In this document: positions 21,934 to 50,074 of the stretch, one piece after another
How the letters are laid out: each line of letters starts with the position of its first letter
Numbering within the stretch: the first letter of the stretch is position 1
NCBI GenBank assembly: GCA_029245245.1
Contig: JAQWPT010000033.1
Span: 248,001 to 312,000, forward strand
DNA: 64,000 nucleotides
Reading direction: 5' to 3'
DNA from: Phycisphaerales bacterium
GTDB taxonomy: Bacteria > Planctomycetota > Phycisphaerae > Phycisphaerales > SM1A02
Translations under genes and position numbers: made by a program
The notes under the pieces: generated by a model
The model's database searches: none
What the model was told of the DNA's origin: nothing
What the model saw: only the letters and a program-made list of their open reading frames with translations

Positions 21934-23193
21934 ATGCCGAGACGAATCGCTGTCCTGACAACCTCCAGGGCCGACTGGGGCCATCTCGTGTGGCCGCTGC
22001 GCCGCCTGCATGATGATGCTCGCCTGCAGCCGCTGCTGATCGTGGCCGCTTCGCATCTCGAGGACCGCTTCGGCTCCACCATCGACGCCATCCGCCGAGA
22101 TGGATTCGAGCCCGACGCCTTGATTCCATGCCTGGCCGAGGGCGACTCTCCGGGCTCCATGGCCAGGACGCTGGCCGACCTGTCATCGGGCCTTGTCGGC
22201 GTACTGGAGTCGCTCCGACCGGACATGATGCTCCTGATCGCCGACCGGTACGAGATGCTGGCCCCGGCCTCCATCGCGACCGCCCTGGGGATTCCCATTG
22301 CGCACGTCGAGGGTGGGGAGATCAGTGAGGGGGCAATCGACCAGCAGGTTCGGGATGCCCTGACGAAGTTGTCGCACCTGCACCTGGTGCCGCACGAGCA
22401 GGCGGCGGCTCGCGTCCAATCACTCGGTGAGGACGCATGGCGGGTCCAGGTCACCGGGGCACCGTCACTCGATCACCTGCGGTGGTCGGACCTGCCCTCG
22501 ATCGACCGCGTGCAGGAGCATGTCGGGATCGATCTGTCCACGGCGCCGCTGGTTGTCTCGATGCATCCTGTCACCCTGCAGCCGGATCCCGTGGCCGATG
22601 CCGCGGCCCTGGTTGCGGCGCTGGAACGAGCGGATCGGCCCGTCGTCTTCTGTTTTCCCAATGCCGACACGGGGCATGAGCGGATCATCGAACTGGCGGA
22701 GGCGTTCTGCGGCGATCGCGATGACGCCGTGCTCCATCGACACATCGATCACCTCCAGTACTGGACGCTGCTGCGACATGCCGCGGCCCTGGTCGGAAAT
22801 TCTTCCAGCGGGATCATGGAAACGCCTGCCATCGGCATTCCCTGCGTCAACATCGGCGATCGCCAGCGGGGCCGCATGCGGGCCGCCAACGTCATCGACG
22901 TCGTGCCGGACGTGGATCGAATCCTCGCCGGCATCGCCAAGGCGGTGGATCCGTCGTTCACAGCAACGTTTGCGGGCCAGGGCAATCCCTACGGTGATGG
23001 AGACGCGGGACGTCGCATCGCGGAGGCGATCGCCTCCGCGCCACCCGCGGCAGACCTGCTTCGCAAGGAGGCCGGGTCAGGGGCAGCTGCCCCAGTTGCC
23101 GATCACGGCCAGCAGGTCGAAGATGTTGACCGTGCCGTCCCCGTTGACATCGCCGGTGCAGTCCGGGCACGTGACGTCAGCGCAGACCATTGA
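21934..23193 (+). CDS. UDP-N-acetylglucosamine 2-epimerase (NeuC-like, hydrolysing)
   Basis: With the ATG at 21934 the protein has 419 residues. It opens TTSRADWGHL, the NeuC form of the epimerase N-terminus, and has ADRYEM, AHVEGGEISEG and GNSSSGIMETPAIGIPCVNIG, which binds the UDP part. Such enzymes release ManNAc from UDP-GlcNAc for nonulosonic acids. No neuA or neuB is near, so the product's fate is unknown. Residues from about 382 on are encoded opposite the 3' end of the Cys-rich exoprotein gene, and the family's usual length ends about there. No ribosome site is seen; the mRNA may be leaderless. Confidence 0.87.
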   Translation: MPRRIAVLTTSRADWGHLVWPLRRLHDDARLQPLLIVAASHLEDRFGSTIDAIRRDGFEPDALIPCLAEGDSPGSMARTLADLSSGLVGVLESLRPDMMLLIADRYEMLAPASIATALGIPIAHVEGGEISEGAIDQQVRDALTKLSHLHLVPHEQAAARVQSLGEDAWRVQVTGAPSLDHLRWSDLPSIDRVQEHVGIDLSTAPLVVSMHPVTLQPDPVADAAALVAALERADRPVVFCFPNADTGHERIIELAEAFCGDRDDAVLHRHIDHLQYWTLLRHAAALVGNSSSGIMETPAIGIPCVNIGDRQRGRMRAANVIDVVPDVDRILAGIAKAVDPSFTATFAGQGNPYGDGDAGRRIAEAIASAPPAADLLRKEAGSGAAAPVADHGQQVEDVDRAVPVDIAGAVRARDVSADH

Positions 23194-40569: not shown

Positions 40570-42177
40570 TCAGAAAGCCGCAGGAACATCGATGTCCATC
40601 GAGCCAACAAGAGTGTGGCCGACGCGAAGCGATGTCAGCTTGATGCCACCGGTGACCTGGAAGACCAGAGTCAGGATCTGGTCCGGCTGTGACATGGACA
40701 GTTGGGGAAGTTCCGGAACAGTCAGAAGCCCGTACTGGGGATCAAGCTTGATCTCGACCTCGTTGCCGAAGAGGAAGTAGTAGCCGATTGGGTGGTACTT
40801 GTGCCCCATGGAATCCAGGAGCGAGATCTGGTCCTCCGGGGAAACGCGATCCTGGACCTGTCCGCCAAGCCACGCGGGGGAGCTCGTGCTGATGGTGACC
40901 TGGACGATCTGCGTGCCTTTGGGGGCTGCAAAGCGGCTTGCCTGCAGGCCGCGACTGGTCTTGGTCTCCGAACGTCGCGGCAGACGAAGGAAGCCGGACT
41001 CGAATCGATTTTCTTCCGTGAGGGACATGGAGCCGGGGATGCGGTTCACATTCGCACGGAAGCTCGCGACCTTGTCCGAGACCTCGACGACAGCGTCGAT
41101 GGGTTGGCCGAGTTGTCGCATGTCCTTTGCGGCGCTTCCGGCCAGCATGGCGGTCGCAAGAGCAGCGGGTACGGTGGATGATGCAGGCAGATCGAACCGC
41201 GTTCCGCGGACCTGCATGAAGTTCGGCTTGAAGCCGGCGGGCGCCTCGAAGATGAAGCCCATCTGGGACTCGTCCCGCCCGGGAATGCTGGTGGCGTAGT
41301 TTGACGGATCGTCGAAGTTGAACGGCCAGGGCTGCTCACTCTGTGGCGTCGCCTGAAGCCACATGGTCGGGTAGAGGATGCTCGGTTTCTTCATGCCCTC
41401 GGGCTCGCCGACGAGGCGGATCTGCGAGCTGGACAGGACCAGTTGCCGACCGAAGTCTCGTGCGCCTGGCTTGAAGCTCGTATTGATGACCCAGAGATCG
41501 GTTCCTTCGATCTTGCGAAGGGCTGTGACATCAACGGCGTCACTTGGCATCGAGACCTGTCCCTCTCCGCCGTTGAAGTTGTCGCGAAGAAGCGAAGGCA
41601 TCTTGTACAGTTCCGGGTAGTAGTGCTTCAGGGGGGCGCCCCCGATGTCCGGGTGCATGGTCGAGATGCTCAGCCACTCGTAGAATTCCGTCGTCCATTT
41701 GTCCACGGGAACCCACAGGGGGGGGCCGGTGGCGGCCATGATGCCGGCCTGGCCACGCTGCCGAGCAAATCCCTTGTAGCCCATCAGCTCGTGGGGGCCC
41801 TGCATGAGCCCGATTGCCGACAGGGTGAATCCGATGGTCAGGATCCCCGCACACAGTCCCATGGTTGCGCCGAGCACCTTGTCGGGCGTGGTTGGAATCA
41901 TGATGTTGGCTCGTATGACCGAGTCACTGGCGGCACGAAGTATGAGCAGGATGATGGCGAACAGTCCCCCGAGGGACAGTCCCATGGCGTAACTGTCGAA
42001 CCCGCCTCCACTGAGAAGCACGCTGATCGCCAATGGCTCCCAGAAGGCCAGGGCGAGTGCGCCGGCGACGATTACGGCGGCCAGATGCAGCAGCGAGCTG
42101 AAGAACCCCTGGTCCATCCACCAGTAGGCGATCAACAGAACGAGTGCAACTACGATGATGTTGAGGATGATGCTCAT
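40570..42177 (-). CDS. CvpA-like membrane protein with large extracytoplasmic domain
   Basis: The 535-residue protein opens with about four membrane segments in residues 1-130, arranged as in the colicin V production protein family (WMDQGFFSSLLHLAAVIVAG, SYAMGLSLGGLFAIILLILR). The remaining 400 residues are soluble and probably periplasmic, with beta-rich stretches and no motif I know. It is the last gene of the PilT, GspE-like, CvpA-like operon and overlaps its upstream neighbour by four bases. It could anchor or regulate that ATPase pair. Its length far exceeds the 160-180 residues of ordinary CvpA. Confidence 0.75.
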   Translation of the reverse strand: MSIILNIIVVALVLLIAYWWMDQGFFSSLLHLAAVIVAGALALAFWEPLAISVLLSGGGFDSYAMGLSLGGLFAIILLILRAASDSVIRANIMIPTTPDKVLGATMGLCAGILTIGFTLSAIGLMQGPHELMGYKGFARQRGQAGIMAATGPPLWVPVDKWTTEFYEWLSISTMHPDIGGAPLKHYYPELYKMPSLLRDNFNGGEGQVSMPSDAVDVTALRKIEGTDLWVINTSFKPGARDFGRQLVLSSSQIRLVGEPEGMKKPSILYPTMWLQATPQSEQPWPFNFDDPSNYATSIPGRDESQMGFIFEAPAGFKPNFMQVRGTRFDLPASSTVPAALATAMLAGSAAKDMRQLGQPIDAVVEVSDKVASFRANVNRIPGSMSLTEENRFESGFLRLPRRSETKTSRGLQASRFAAPKGTQIVQVTISTSSPAWLGGQVQDRVSPEDQISLLDSMGHKYHPIGYYFLFGNEVEIKLDPQYGLLTVPELPQLSMSQPDQILTLVFQVTGGIKLTSLRVGHTLVGSMDIDVPAAF

Positions 42178-43862
42178 GATGCCTCCGCCTTGGTGGCCTT
42201 CTTCTTCTTCTTCTCCGAGGACTTGCCGGGTGAGAGAACCCGGGCCACTTCATCCAGCGAGGTCTCTCCCTGCCCGGCCTTCCAGAGGGCCGCTTCCTGC
42301 ATCAGCAGCATCCTGTTGCGACGGGCGGTGGCCATTGCCGTCTTGAGATCGCCACCACGAAGGTGGTTCCGGATGTCCTTGTCGATGTCGAGGACCTCGT
42401 ACACGCCGGTCTGCCCCATGAATCCCGTTCCGTTGCAGATCGGGCATTCCGTGACCTTGTTGCGGATCTGGACCTGCCCGACGCTCCGGCAGAGTTCCTT
42501 GCCGATGCCGCTGGGCAGTTTGATACTGGCCAGTTCTTCGGGAGTCAGTGGCTGGCGGCAGTTGGGACAGAGCTTGCGAATGAGTCGCTGACTGAGAATG
42601 GCCCTGATCGGTTTGACGGCACTGTCCACGTCGCCGACGTACTTCACCCATTCGCGGATGCAGCTGACGATGTTCGACGAGTGCATCGTGACGTAGATCA
42701 GCGGGCCCTGCCGGCCCGGGGCAATGCTGGACTTTGCGGTGTCGGAATCCCGCACGTCGCCGACGAGTGCGATGTCCGGATCGCGTCGGAGAATGGACTG
42801 CAGGTTGGTGGCGAAGTCGATGTCGACGTTCATCGGGTCCCACTCCACCTGGTCAACGCCGCTGATGTAGGCCTCGATCTCGTACTCAAGGGACTTGATG
42901 TTGCTTGTGTACGCATCGTGACGTGCCATGAGTGAATAGGCGGTGGTGGTCGATCCCTGATTTGGAGGAGACGTCACGAGCACGATGCCGTGGCGTTCAT
43001 GCGACTCCATGAGGGAATCAATCATTTCTCGCTGCTGTGGAAGCAGCCCAAGCTGTTCGTAGTGGACGATCCGTGCGTTCTCGCGATTGAACTCGAGAAT
43101 CACGATTGATCCCTTGGACGATCCTGACGCCGTCAGTTGGACAGTGGTTTCACCCATGGGGCCGGTGAGAGAGAAGCTGCTGGACTTTTTCCTTCGCGTG
43201 TCGGAGAGGTCCATTCCAGCAAGCTGCTTCATGAAGTTGATGACCTGCGCGCCGTCCTCGGTATTGAACCCCTCCTGTTTCGTCCGGAATCCGTCGACCA
43301 TCCATGCGACGTGGCAGCCCTCGTTCGTCAGCAGCATCTCGATCTTGGAGGCCCGTGTCTTGATGGCGGGTCCGATGATGTCTTCTGCCCGAAGGTAGAC
43401 CTGGAACGCGGGTTCTTCCTTGCCGGGAACCTTCACGTCCTGTCCGCGAGAATCGGTGAACTGGAGCACGGCCGCCTGCCTGGCTTTTTCGAGTTTCTGC
43501 TGCTGCTTTACAGCTGCATCCTTGGAAAAGCTCAGGTGGTACTGCTTGTCCTCGGGGACCGATGCGTTTCGAATCTTCCAGTAGCAGAGCACCGGGGTCA
43601 GCAGGATGATGAATCCCGCGGGCAGGCTCACCCAGAACTGCCACCCGGTGAAGAGTGCGGCGACAGCCAGAACGCCGGATCCAAGGAAGATCGTGTTCCA
43701 CTTCTGCCATCCGAGTTTGTAGTACCTGAGGTCCTTGTCAATCTTGGTGGAGACAAGCCACGCCCAGGCGATGAATACTCCCCAGAGGATCAGGGGCTTC
43801 CATGGGCTCAGCAGGAATACGGATGAATCGCCGAGTTGAAGCAGGCACGTCGAAAAGGACAT
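42174..43862 (-). CDS. Membrane-anchored GspE/PilB-like protein with altered nucleotide motifs
   Basis: The 562-residue protein has two or three N-terminal membrane segments (residues 22-37 and 58-95), which ordinary GspE and PilB lack. The RecA-like part follows the secretion-ATPase order, but Walker A reads TSPPNQGSTTT (297-307) with Ser304 where the essential Lys should be, and the Walker B region reads ALVGDVRD with Asp369 in place of the catalytic Glu. The zinc site CPNC (432-435) with CPIC (473-476) is kept. The tail is Lys-rich. It is probably a weak or inactive ATPase that works with the intact PilT encoded just before it. Confidence 0.85.
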   Translation of the reverse strand: MSFSTCLLQLGDSSVFLLSPWKPLILWGVFIAWAWLVSTKIDKDLRYYKLGWQKWNTIFLGSGVLAVAALFTGWQFWVSLPAGFIILLTPVLCYWKIRNASVPEDKQYHLSFSKDAAVKQQQKLEKARQAAVLQFTDSRGQDVKVPGKEEPAFQVYLRAEDIIGPAIKTRASKIEMLLTNEGCHVAWMVDGFRTKQEGFNTEDGAQVINFMKQLAGMDLSDTRRKKSSSFSLTGPMGETTVQLTASGSSKGSIVILEFNRENARIVHYEQLGLLPQQREMIDSLMESHERHGIVLVTSPPNQGSTTTAYSLMARHDAYTSNIKSLEYEIEAYISGVDQVEWDPMNVDIDFATNLQSILRRDPDIALVGDVRDSDTAKSSIAPGRQGPLIYVTMHSSNIVSCIREWVKYVGDVDSAVKPIRAILSQRLIRKLCPNCRQPLTPEELASIKLPSGIGKELCRSVGQVQIRNKVTECPICNGTGFMGQTGVYEVLDIDKDIRNHLRGGDLKTAMATARRNRMLLMQEAALWKAGQGETSLDEVARVLSPGKSSEKKKKKATKAEAS

Positions 43863-43884
43863 GTGGGGGTCTTCCAGTCTTGGA

Positions 43885-45018
43885 TCAGGAGATGCCCTTG
43901 AGGCGCATCTTCAGTTCTTCGGGCTTGGGGGTTGCTTCCAGCGCAACCTTGTGGTGTATCCACTCCGTCTCGACGAGTTTGACGAGCGAAGTCGTGAAAT
44001 CGACCATGCCCTCCTCGATGCTCTTGCGAATGATGTCAAGCAGCTCGCCTTCACGGGCCTCGAGGATGTACTTCTGGACCGCAGGGGTTCCAAGAAGGAT
44101 CTCGACAGCGGGAATCCGTGGAACATCTTCCATGAGGGTCGGCAGCAGTTTCTGGTAGACGATGGCCCGGAGGTTGTAGGTGAGCAGCTTTCGGATGTTC
44201 TCCACCTCTTCCTGGTCGAACAGGTCGTAGATGCGGCCGAAGGTCTGCCATGCCGACGATGCGTGGATCGTTCCGAAGACAAGGTGGCCGGTTTCTGCTG
44301 CTCGGATGGCGGCCTCGAACGTTTCCTTGTCACGCATCTCGCCTACGAGGACGACATCCGGGTCTTCCCGGACCAACGCCCGCAGGGCTTCGTTGAAGTC
44401 GATGCAGTCGATGCCGACTTCACGCTGGTTGATGCTGGCCTTGTCGTCCTTGAAGATGTACTCGATCGGATCTTCGATGGTGACGATGTGGCATCGCTTG
44501 CGCTGGTTCACGTACTGGAGCATCGCCGCAATGGAGGTGCTCTTGCCGGAGCCGGTCACGCCGGCGAAGAGGATGAGTCCGTTGGCCGAGAGCGCGACGG
44601 GCCCGAGAATCTCGGGGATGTGCAGCTGCTCGAAGGTCATGATGTTCGAGGTGATGAGCCGGCAGGCAAGAGAAACCTTGCCGCGACTCATGAAGATGTT
44701 CACCCGGAATCTCCGGTCCTCGTCGTAGTCGTAGGCGAGGTCGAACTGGCCATGTCGCTTGAAGTGTGCGTATTGACTTTCGTCGAGGATGTCGATCGAG
44801 ATCTGGTGACCGTCTTCCTGCGTCGTCATGTCGGTATTGAGCGTTCGGAGTTCGCCTCGAACACGGATTCTCGGTGCGGTATCGGACTTGATATGGAGAT
44901 CCGATGCCTCGTAATTGATGCATGCCTTCAGGAGCTTGCGGAAGACCGCTACACCCTGACCATCCTTCGTCCCCTGGACATTGTGGACAGATCCAAAGAC
45001 TTCCTTGACTTCACTCAT
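43885..45018 (-). CDS. PilT-like type IV pilus ATPase
   Basis: With the ATG at 45018 (AGGAG 11 bases upstream) the protein has 377 residues. Motifs are intact: ASDLHIKS in the N-terminal domain, Walker A GVTGSGKST (153-161), the Asp box TIEDPIEYIF, Walker B VLVGEMRD with Glu227, and the AIRAAETGHLVFGTIHA His box typical of PilT/PilU. PilT hexamers retract pili. No pilin or pilC gene lies here; the partners are the GspE-like and CvpA-like proteins encoded downstream. An upstream frame extension to 45177 looks non-coding. Confidence 0.93.
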   Translation of the reverse strand: MSEVKEVFGSVHNVQGTKDGQGVAVFRKLLKACINYEASDLHIKSDTAPRIRVRGELRTLNTDMTTQEDGHQISIDILDESQYAHFKRHGQFDLAYDYDEDRRFRVNIFMSRGKVSLACRLITSNIMTFEQLHIPEILGPVALSANGLILFAGVTGSGKSTSIAAMLQYVNQRKRCHIVTIEDPIEYIFKDDKASINQREVGIDCIDFNEALRALVREDPDVVLVGEMRDKETFEAAIRAAETGHLVFGTIHASSAWQTFGRIYDLFDQEEVENIRKLLTYNLRAIVYQKLLPTLMEDVPRIPAVEILLGTPAVQKYILEAREGELLDIIRKSIEEGMVDFTTSLVKLVETEWIHHKVALEATPKPEELKMRLKGIS

Positions 45019-46840: not shown

Positions 46841-49800
46841 TCAGTTGCAGCCCCAGTCGGCGATCACGATCAGCAGATCCTCGACGTTGTAGGGGTTGCC
46901 CCAGTCGGCGAGGACCATCAGGAGGTCCTCGATGCCGACTGCTCCGTCCCCGTTGAGGTCGCCGATGCAGATCACATCATTGCACTCGGTCACGGAGACC
47001 GTGACCGAATCGATGCCTGCTTCGACCACGGATCCTTCGCCATAATCCGAAGCGGTGAATCGAAGCATGAACTCCGGTGTGTTCAGCAGTCCCGGGAGAT
47101 CGCTGACCATGAAGCTCACGTCGACCCAGCTGCCGGAAAGGGGGCCGAGGTTTTCAACCGTCGTCCAGGAGCCGCCACCGTTGCCGGAGGCCTCGACGAG
47201 GAAGCCGTCGTCCTGGGGAGCGGTCGTGCAGCCGCTGCCGTTGCTGTACCAGCGCGAGTAACTCACCATGGTGGATGGGTTGGACGCGTCGAGCATCGGT
47301 GAGGTGAGGATGGTCGTGCCTCCATCGACATCACTGTTGCAGCTGCCGGCGGAACTGTTGTCGGTCAACCAGCACCGGCCAGAGCCATCCGAGTCGGTCG
47401 GTGGGTCGCAGCGTGCGCAGTTGACCGGAATGCCGCGGTCCCACTGGCCGTCCGTTGCGGTGCCACTGACGGTCCATCCGGGGTCGGACTCACCGTCGTC
47501 ATCGAGAATGATGATGACATCACTGTAGACCTGTGCGGACTCTTCGGAAGACTGGTATTCATCTCCGTCATCGCCCTGCGTGGTGAACCAGTATGTCACA
47601 GGTGCGCATTCCAGTGCCGGGAAGCGGGCGTCGTAGATGTTGGCATCGACTTCCATCATGACTCCCATCACGATGGTGTCGTTCTGTCCGACGTACATCA
47701 TGCCCGAGCCGGGAACCGGATCAAGGTCGTCGCCCCCGGTTATCTCGACCCGGATGCTCTGGGGATCCTCTGGATCGATAATTTCAGGAAGCCCGTCCGG
47801 GTAGCTGAAGGAGATGGTCGCGTTGTCACAGGGTTCGCCGGGGCCGTCGATGACGACCGTCCCGGTGCCGCTGGCGCCGTTGTAGCCACCGATGCGGACA
47901 TAGATGAGCTGGCCCTGGGTCACGTCGACCGAGAGCGATGAGGTATACAGGTCGCAGCCGGACGCATCGCCGTTGCAGGCGATCTGAGACAGGCTGTTGC
48001 AGTCTCCCGTGTAGACAGCCAGGTCCGTGTCGAACCCGGCGGTGTTGCACAGGCTCACGGACATCGAGCCGGTGCCGCATGCGACAAGCTGATACCAGAC
48101 GTCCGGGTCGCAGGCGGTCATGTACGTGCTGGAGCACTGGCTTTCATCCACGGGGACGCCCGATGAGGCGGCGCCGGTGGTATTGACCTCCCAGGAGCCC
48201 CATGTGACGGGACGTGCGGTGATGCAATCGTCATTGTCGGGCGGAATCGGGATGTCATCCGGAGTGATGCCATGCTGGTTGAACGCCGAGTAGATCTTGT
48301 CACTGTTGGGCGTTCCGTTGCTGATGTCTCCATCGTCATCGTCGAGGAGGAGGTAGTCGAGCAGGATGGCGCCGTCGATGCTGGTTCCATTATGGAGCGG
48401 CAGTGAGTCAATCACGATCCGCGCGGCTGTGTCGAAGTCGCCAGGCATCAACTCCACGAAATCCCAGACGACGCCGGAAATCAGTTGGCCGCAGGAGTGA
48501 ATCGCGCTGCCGCAGGAGGAGCAGCCGCTCGCCTGGTACTGACAACTGTTGTCCGCGTTGCGAATGCCATTGTTGCAGTCGTTGGTGTAGAAGCCTCTGG
48601 CCAGTTGATTGTCGCCCGTGATGAGGACGCCCATGACGTCGCCCATGCCCTCGCCGTACTCGTTCTGGCCGGAGCCGGCGCAGGAGACGAGGTGGTGGCC
48701 GTACTCGTGGTGAACGATCACGGAGAATGCGGTGTTGCTGCATCCGCCGGCTTCGTTGTAGAAGTTGATCGATTCATAGTCGTAGTAGGCGTTGCAGGAA
48801 CTTCCAAGGTTCACGTTGACTGGGAACCCGTTTTCACTGTTGATGACCGGGTACAGCGGGTTGTAGAAGAGTACGAAGTCACGCACGACGTTCGAGTGGA
48901 GATAGGCATCGGCCTGGGCCAGGGCGTACTCACTGGTGTCCGTGTGGTGGTGATACGCATCCCCACCGTTGGAGACGGAGGTGCTGAAACTGGCCTCGCC
49001 GCCGGAATCGTTGTTGACTGAGAAATACTGTCCGTCGAAGGCGCTTGTCACGGTGACACTGCCCGAACTGGACATGCTCCAGTTGCCGTCTGCATCAGCC
49101 ACGGCTGACTGACCGTTGCTGCCGGAGACGAAGATGTAGGGCATGCCGTAGAGGGAGTCGCTCTCACAGGTGTCGGCTCCGGAGCCGTCAGTGGCCTGCG
49201 AGGAGGTGCGGCCGGTGATGTCGCCGACGGCGGCCGTGCCGACGGCCTTGGCGACAGAGGCCCCTGCATGACCGCAGTTGAGGACGCGGTTCTCGTTGTA
49301 GATGATGTTTCCCGTAGCGAGGTCGCTGATCAGCAGCCATCGCTGGTAGGTGCCGTCGGACTTGTCACCAGAAGTGACCTCGAAGCTCATGCCAAGGATG
49401 GGGGACGCAACTTCCTGTTCGGCCCCGGCGTAGACGACGATCGAGGGCGCGGCGACGAGTTCGACGGCCTCACCCAGGAATCGACTGCCTGCCTGGACTG
49501 CGGCATCGTGGTCCGCCGCATCATTGGCGATGGGCCCTGGGGTCCAGCCCTTGAGGGGCTTGAGGTCGGACTTGATGTGGACGACCGGGTACCCGGGTTC
49601 GTTGCGAACCAGGGTCATGAGTCGCGATTGGAAGACTGGAATGCCGTTGATGGCCTGCTCGAAGTTGAGCAGGGTGAGGCCGTAGCTGTCGGTTTCACGG
49701 TTGTAGCGGAGGGGGACTTCGCCGATCACGTCCATTGGTCTGATCTGGTCGGGGGTCACGCCGTGCATGTCGCCCCATTCAATGATGTAGTTCCTGGCCG

Positions 49801-50032
49801 AATCGACAGGGGATCCCCCGTGAGCCATGTCTGGCGCGTAGAGAGCCCTGATGTTGCCAGACTCGTTGTGAACGACCTTTGCGCGCAGGTTCGATGCCTT
49901 GAACTGCTCCGTCGGGCTGAAGTCCTTGAAGCCACTCACTTTCGATGCGGCCTGCAGGTCGACGGTCAGAAATCCGGTTACAGCGATACATGCAGCGATC
50001 GCTGCCCGATTCAGGATCAACTTGATCTTCAT
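46841..50032 (-). CDS. Secreted M36-like zinc metalloprotease with dockerin-like C-terminus
   Basis: The ATG at 50032 gives 1063 residues. A signal peptide (residues 1-28) is followed by a propeptide-like part with FTP-type strands (GIPVFQSRLMTLV). The peptidase domain has HEYGH at 442-446 and the third zinc ligand Glu461 in GEGMGD, the spacing and context of fungalysin-type (M36) enzymes. Residues about 600-730 are a Cys-containing pre-peptidase-C-like domain, and 850-1015 a beta-rich domain. The end (1021-1063) is a dockerin-like pair in which the second copy has lost its calcium loop, closing ADWGCN. It probably degrades proteins outside the cell or at its surface. Confidence 0.88.
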   Translation of the reverse strand: MKIKLILNRAAIAACIAVTGFLTVDLQAASKVSGFKDFSPTEQFKASNLRAKVVHNESGNIRALYAPDMAHGGSPVDSARNYIIEWGDMHGVTPDQIRPMDVIGEVPLRYNRETDSYGLTLLNFEQAINGIPVFQSRLMTLVRNEPGYPVVHIKSDLKPLKGWTPGPIANDAADHDAAVQAGSRFLGEAVELVAAPSIVVYAGAEQEVASPILGMSFEVTSGDKSDGTYQRWLLISDLATGNIIYNENRVLNCGHAGASVAKAVGTAAVGDITGRTSSQATDGSGADTCESDSLYGMPYIFVSGSNGQSAVADADGNWSMSSSGSVTVTSAFDGQYFSVNNDSGGEASFSTSVSNGGDAYHHHTDTSEYALAQADAYLHSNVVRDFVLFYNPLYPVINSENGFPVNVNLGSSCNAYYDYESINFYNEAGGCSNTAFSVIVHHEYGHHLVSCAGSGQNEYGEGMGDVMGVLITGDNQLARGFYTNDCNNGIRNADNSCQYQASGCSSCGSAIHSCGQLISGVVWDFVELMPGDFDTAARIVIDSLPLHNGTSIDGAILLDYLLLDDDDGDISNGTPNSDKIYSAFNQHGITPDDIPIPPDNDDCITARPVTWGSWEVNTTGAASSGVPVDESQCSSTYMTACDPDVWYQLVACGTGSMSVSLCNTAGFDTDLAVYTGDCNSLSQIACNGDASGCDLYTSSLSVDVTQGQLIYVRIGGYNGASGTGTVVIDGPGEPCDNATISFSYPDGLPEIIDPEDPQSIRVEITGGDDLDPVPGSGMMYVGQNDTIVMGVMMEVDANIYDARFPALECAPVTYWFTTQGDDGDEYQSSEESAQVYSDVIIILDDDGESDPGWTVSGTATDGQWDRGIPVNCARCDPPTDSDGSGRCWLTDNSSAGSCNSDVDGGTTILTSPMLDASNPSTMVSYSRWYSNGSGCTTAPQDDGFLVEASGNGGGSWTTVENLGPLSGSWVDVSFMVSDLPGLLNTPEFMLRFTASDYGEGSVVEAGIDSVTVSVTECNDVICIGDLNGDGAVGIEDLLMVLADWGNPYNVEDLLIVIADWGCN

Positions 50033-50074
50033 GATGTGGGGATTCCTCAAATCTCTCTACAAAAAAGCAGGTTG

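Follow-up and report, generated by a model that had tools for sequence, protein, structure and literature searches.

The closest described relatives of the proteins treated here are the PilT/PilU retraction ATPases of type IVa pili and the PilB/GspE assembly ATPases. For PilB/GspE-type enzymes the roles of the catalytic residues have been defined, among them E395 in GmPilB (PMC5424180); PilT proteins carry a highly conserved AIRNLIRE motif, which is absent from PilU (PMC6762196). In Vibrio cholerae, PilU still works together with a PilT that is ATPase-dead (PMC6762196), and this is the nearest tested precedent for the pairing of one dead with one active ATPase.

Organization and conservation of the operon

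The locus lies in a window (the whole stretch of 64,000 nucleotides that was analysed) of contig JAQWPT010000033.1, positions 248,001 to 312,000, from a Phycisphaerales bacterium (assembly GCA_029245245.1). Three consecutive ORFs on the minus strand, in the order pilT, gspE-like, and cvpA-like, form a tight operon, which is flanked by a divergent guaB gene on one side and an ABC transporter gene pair on the other. The spacing between pilT and the gspE-like gene is 22 bp, and the gspE-like and cvpA-like genes overlap by 4 bp; therefore, co-transcription of the three genes is likely, as had been proposed in an earlier reading made from the letters of the window alone (here called the sequence-only reading). 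The features of the operon are as follows:

43885-45018, minus strand: pilT, PilT-family ATPase, 377 aa (TIGR01420, 395 bits; motifs kept in 41/41 aligned operon PilTs)
44536-44562, minus strand: Walker A motif of PilT, GVTGSGKST, residues 153-161 (from sequence; K159 invariant)
42174-43862, minus strand: GspE/PilB-like membrane-anchored putative pseudo-ATPase, 562 aa (Pfam T2SSE, 152.8 bits; core of the AF2 model against PilB/GspE, Z 36)
43560-43802, minus strand: its N-terminal anchor, three predicted membrane helices, residues 21-101 (AF2 pLDDT ~80-89; hydropathy)
42942-42971, minus strand: its degenerate Walker A, SPPNQGSTTT, with Ser304 for the essential Lys (alignments)
42756-42758, minus strand: Asp369 in place of the catalytic Glu (EpsE E334, GmPilB E395; alignment to 1p9r, residue definitions from PMC5424180)
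42435-42569, minus strand: zinc-type tetracysteine, C432, C435, C473, and C476 (each Cys in at least 61 of 63 pseudo-ATPases)
40570-42177, minus strand: CvpA-like membrane protein, 535 aa (Colicin_V, 29.6 bits; AF2 pLDDT 87.3)
41809-42177, minus strand: its four-helix membrane part, residues 1-123 (AF2 model and hydropathy)
41173-41559, minus strand: its first beta-sandwich, residues 207-335 (AF2 model; weak Ig-like fold matches)
40588-41115, minus strand: its second beta-sandwich, residues 355-530 (best match 5bxg, Z 5.3, then 9a4z (YXKC), Z 4.9)

Unlike a type IV pilus or type II secretion operon, this one carries no pilin and PilC/GspF genes beside its ATPase genes, and a survey of neighbour families conserved across 74 operon loci turned up neither PilC nor pilins. 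Neighbours such as guaB and accB/accC were considered as further parts of the operon and rejected, as they are conserved there essentially only within the family.

The sequence-only reading had made its proposal dependent on the three genes being kept together, and this was looked at across Planctomycetota, to which the distribution survey refers throughout. All 40 loci from the family and the order of the window have the arrangement pilT, gspE-like, cvpA-like. Where the class was sampled in other orders, 15 of 20 loci have it too, and pilT is non-adjacent in the remaining five. The trio is thus kept together, and the proposal withstood the condition set for its refutation. An independent scan of contigs of named genomes was led by the PilT alignment, the GspE-like alignment being too diverse for this purpose; it placed an anchored GspE downstream of pilT in 68 of the 80 loci, which belong mostly to Phycisphaerales and Phycisphaerae, and four of the 12 exceptions lie at a contig edge. 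A mostly full-length GspE-like match of family strength was found in ~144 of 150 genomes of the class, a count which is a judgement on the gap in E-values between the family (~1e-84 or better) and canonical GspE (~1e-72 to 1e-80).

Several other Planctomycetota lineages, as well as Aquisphaera insulae (Isosphaeraceae), encode an anchored GspE with intact catalytic residues; these lineages also carry PilT and/or a short CvpA-like gene. Inactive GspE-like versions were found outside the class in two lineages (f84 and f93). Both of these lineages have a membrane-protein gene directly after the cvpA-like gene (L146:4171-4998 and L148:4642-5352); the latter product is DUF4190-like, just under the cut-off, the former is similar to it by eye, and it is possible that this protein is an extra part there.

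A GspE with an FHA domain and intact catalytic motifs is encoded in one copy in the genome under study, where it stands alone (L094:7808-9538, contig C27). In one family it is found inside the operon (L117, G263), in G194 adjacent to it, and in L218 next to an operon-type PilT. As near full-length copies are present in only ~17 of 61 sampled class genomes, it may be an optional fourth part of the operon at most. Elsewhere in the window, two large proteins (46841-50050 and near 23154, both minus strand) bear the motif GDxNGDGxVxIxDLLxVxxxWG close to the C-terminus, as does a further protein of the same genome (L093); this ending is likely a dockerin-like or sorting tag. The protein at 46841-50050 also contains a HEYGHH metalloprotease motif.

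The three proteins

With 395 bits against TIGR01420, PilT exceeds the cut-off of 319 and thus belongs to this family. In all 41 aligned operon PilTs (those from the order together with that of the window) Walker A, Asp box, GEMRD, and HIS box are invariant or nearly so, and the ATPase is, judged by its motifs, intact, which agrees with the sequence-only reading. PilT is also the most constrained of the three proteins, its dN/dS being 0.06 (window against one genome of the same genus). When the operon PilTs were placed in a tree with other PilTs drawn from 14 genomes, they fell into a single clade (support 99), distinct from the pilus PilTs that these genomes also encode. The AIRNLIRE motif is not conserved in the window PilT, which reads VQKYILEA; at the position of its Asn, 58 of 63 operon PilTs have Lys (Lys316), whereas Asn is present in 22 of 25 other PilTs. 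A PilT fragment with 69% identity to the window PilT was also seen in a record titled Deltaproteobacteria UBA12015 (L204), which is probably misnamed or contaminated.

The GspE-like protein reaches 152.8 bits against Pfam T2SSE and has the corresponding fold, but it stays far below the cut-offs of the equivalog models (TIGR02533, 187 against 630 bits; TIGR02538, 164 against 676 bits). Its AF2 model (pLDDT 84) comprises three N-terminal helices and a hexamer-ATPase core, the core superposing on Thermus PilB (5it5) with a Z-score of 36.4 and an rmsd of 3.6 over 376 residues. The membrane anchors proposed in the sequence-only reading correspond to these three predicted helices (residues 21-101), and two to three hydropathy peaks occur at this place in most relatives. 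Both substitutions it had named were recovered by alignment: where Vibrio GspE has GPTGSG-K-STT the window protein reads SPPNQG-S-TTT, with Ser304 for the Walker A Lys, and Asp369 aligns, in the comparison with 1p9r, with the Walker B catalytic Glu (EpsE E334). Further, alignment to EpsE indicates that both arginine fingers are lost (Gln242 and Glu257). Residue roles were taken from PMC5424180, the numbering being deduced from the EpsE alignment.

The losses extend far beyond the window. The set of inactive proteins comprises 63 sequences, 61 from the class Phycisphaerae and two from other lineages, and was compared with 11 active relatives from Planctomycetota lineages outside the class. The Walker A Lys is absent from all 61 class members read, and from 63/63 pseudo-ATPases overall, whereas it is kept, together with the catalytic residues, in all 11 active relatives. 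At least eight different residues occupy its site in the 63 pseudo-ATPases (Leu, Arg, Val, Ser, Thr, Met, Ile, and Ala); most members have lost the arginine fingers, the Asp box, and the catalytic Glu, and just five retain the HIS-box His. Nearly or fully invariant, on the other hand, are Gly303, Glu326, Arg429, and the zinc-type cysteines.

The gspE-like ORF is open from end to end in the class members read, and its dN/dS is 0.17-0.19 (window against two genomes of the same genus, an approximate value with synonymous sites near saturation). Lost catalytic residues, kept zinc cysteines, and a dN/dS of ~0.2 therefore identify the protein, by sequence, as a pseudo-ATPase maintained by selection, and the pairing of one active with one structural ATPase, as put forward in the sequence-only reading, is well supported at this level by the absence of the Lys in 61/61 and the presence of the PilT motifs in 41/41. 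That the GspE-like protein might be a decaying relic, kept by chance beside pilT, is refuted by the open reading frame, the zinc cysteines, and the dN/dS of ~0.2, and may be practically dismissed.

Some nucleotide binding may remain in these proteins, because the Lys site is occupied by Arg in 14 of the 63, and 16 still have Glu at the catalytic position. A GspE-like protein that is in fact alive, whether through an unconventional mode of nucleotide binding or turnover or because PilT residues complete it in a mixed ring, would be consistent with the Arg in those 14 and with the invariance of Walker A Gly303 and Thr/Ser305 and of the first Asp-box Glu (E326). However, the residue replacing the Lys varies widely, and the fingers, Gln242 and Glu257 in the window protein, are lost in most members; we regard a living enzyme as improbable.

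The pseudo-ATPase derives from a working GspE-like enzyme, in one or two events, because in other lineages of Planctomycetota this set of genes encodes a GspE-like ATPase that is intact. The GspE tree places 29 of 29 pseudo-ATPases on one side of a branch (support 78), which allows a single loss; in the PilT tree, two of the inactive lineages group with active ones (support 97), which suggests two losses of ATPase function. The lineages with active versions of the same operon thus offer a ready before-and-after comparison.

The CvpA-like protein scores 29.6 bits against Colicin_V (PF02674), marginally above the cut-off of 29.3, and has a dN/dS of 0.22-0.26 (window against two genomes of the same genus). 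Its AF2 model (pLDDT 87.3) has four membrane helices within residues 3-123, followed by ~410 residues with two beta-sandwiches, for which Ig-like folds give weak matches (best Z 5.3); a Foldseek search with the model returned no match below E 0.001. The outer domain of 400 residues that the sequence-only reading had ascribed to it is thus present as to size, while its location on the outer side follows from a presumed orientation, the beta-sandwich region being probably in the periplasm. In lineages outside the class, short CvpA-like versions of ~190-270 aa occur.

A proposed PilT-powered complex and its alternatives

We favor, at a probability of about 0.5, the view that the operon products assemble into a dedicated inner-membrane complex driven by PilT, in which the pseudo-GspE and the CvpA-like protein form a membrane dock; the contact between the proteins, the direction of force, the orientation of the CvpA-like protein, and the cargo are inferred. 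PilT, as an active hexameric ATPase and the sole engine encoded in the operon, would supply the force. The pseudo-GspE, without turnover of ATP, would receive it as a membrane-tethered adaptor ring or dock held by its three N-terminal helices, and the four-helix CvpA-like protein would act as a membrane base that conveys movement, or else a regulatory signal, to the large and probably periplasmic beta-sandwich region. In favor of a dedicated complex are the conserved operon, the disappearance of catalytic residues from just one of the partners, selection acting on each of the three proteins, the separate PilT clade, and the active GspE-like proteins elsewhere; against it are the five of 20 loci at the class level in which pilT and the gspE-like gene are not neighbours, and the presence of PilC in all 150 sampled class genomes, whose ordinary pilus or secretion platform may be the target of the complex.

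The presence of PilC bears on two statements of the sequence-only reading. That pilins and PilC are missing holds for the operon only: elsewhere the genome encodes four PilCs along with six canonical GspE/PilB-type ATPases, two further PilTs, and pilin-like proteins with an N-methylation motif. That this is not a standard pilus system is consistent with the separate PilT clade, the altered AIRNLIRE motif, and the lack of local pilin and PilC genes, yet because PilC is encoded in 150/150 class genomes there may be a link to the pili or the type II secretion of the cell. PilC co-occurrence does not separate the dedicated complex from the following alternative: the operon might play an accessory part in the type IV pili or the type II secretion of the cell itself, PilT and the pseudo-GspE docking on a PilC encoded elsewhere, where they would tune retraction or assembly as PilU does via PilT, with the CvpA-like protein as a tether. 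The universal PilC, the repertoire of pilus and secretion genes in the same genome, and the known coupling of PilU and PilT (PMC6762196) make this accessory role possible, if rather doubtful: PilC and pilin families are lacking among the conserved neighbours in 74 loci, the operon PilT belongs to a separate clade with a different AIRNLIRE motif, and the CvpA-like protein is no known pilus part.

One might also envisage a scaffold or regulatory complex without any motor role, in which PilT is a switch acting on the other two proteins; envelope stress, sensing, or the building of a different complex would be examples. An operon without a cargo or filament gene would suit such a role, as would the addition in some relatives of the FHA-domain GspE, which brings a signalling domain; the invariant motor motifs of PilT, and its position as the most constrained of the three, argue against it and render it very unlikely.

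Returning to the dedicated complex, a bolder and tentative proposal, which we consider doubtful at present, is that it represents a motor class new to description, a PilT ring driving a membrane-embedded inactive PilB/GspE-type ring and the CvpA-like protein, without PilC or pilins, and thereby moving or tensioning something in the planctomycete envelope. A PilB/GspE-type partner that is naturally inactive, is fixed in nearly the entire class, and is paired with an active PilT would mean that such rings can be pure adaptors; the operon may also reveal an envelope machine in a phylum of unusual cell biology.

Comparison with known systems

Each of the three proteins belongs to a known superfamily; it is their combination, its occurrence in nearly the whole class, and the conversion throughout of one ATPase into a pseudo-enzyme that appear to be undescribed in the literature searched, where searches linking CvpA with PilT, or type IV pili with pseudo-ATPases, returned nothing relevant. 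The CvpA-like protein of the window has the four-helix N-terminal part in common with CvpA, the colicin V production protein (PF02674), from which it differs by its marginal score and the ~410 extra residues with two beta-sandwiches. With the PilT/PilU retraction ATPases of type IVa pili, the operon PilT shares the TIGR01420 score, Walker A, Asp box, catalytic Glu, and HIS box; in contrast to them, the operon PilTs form a separate clade, have in most cases replaced the Asn of AIRNLIRE by Lys, mostly read TIHAS in the HIS box instead of TLHT, and have no adjoining PilC or pilin gene. The pseudo-ATPase shares with the PilB/GspE assembly ATPases the N2 and C-terminal ATPase fold and the tetracysteine zinc site, but in the window it is devoid of the Walker A Lys, the catalytic Glu, and the arginine fingers, and its N-terminal domain is replaced by three membrane helices. 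Like PilU and the ATPase-dead PilT of Vibrio cholerae (PMC6762196), the operon would thus pair one inactive with one active ATPase of the same superfamily; there, however, inactivity was engineered and both proteins are PilT-type, whereas here the predicted inactive partner is of the GspE type, is so naturally and throughout the class, and is anchored in the membrane.
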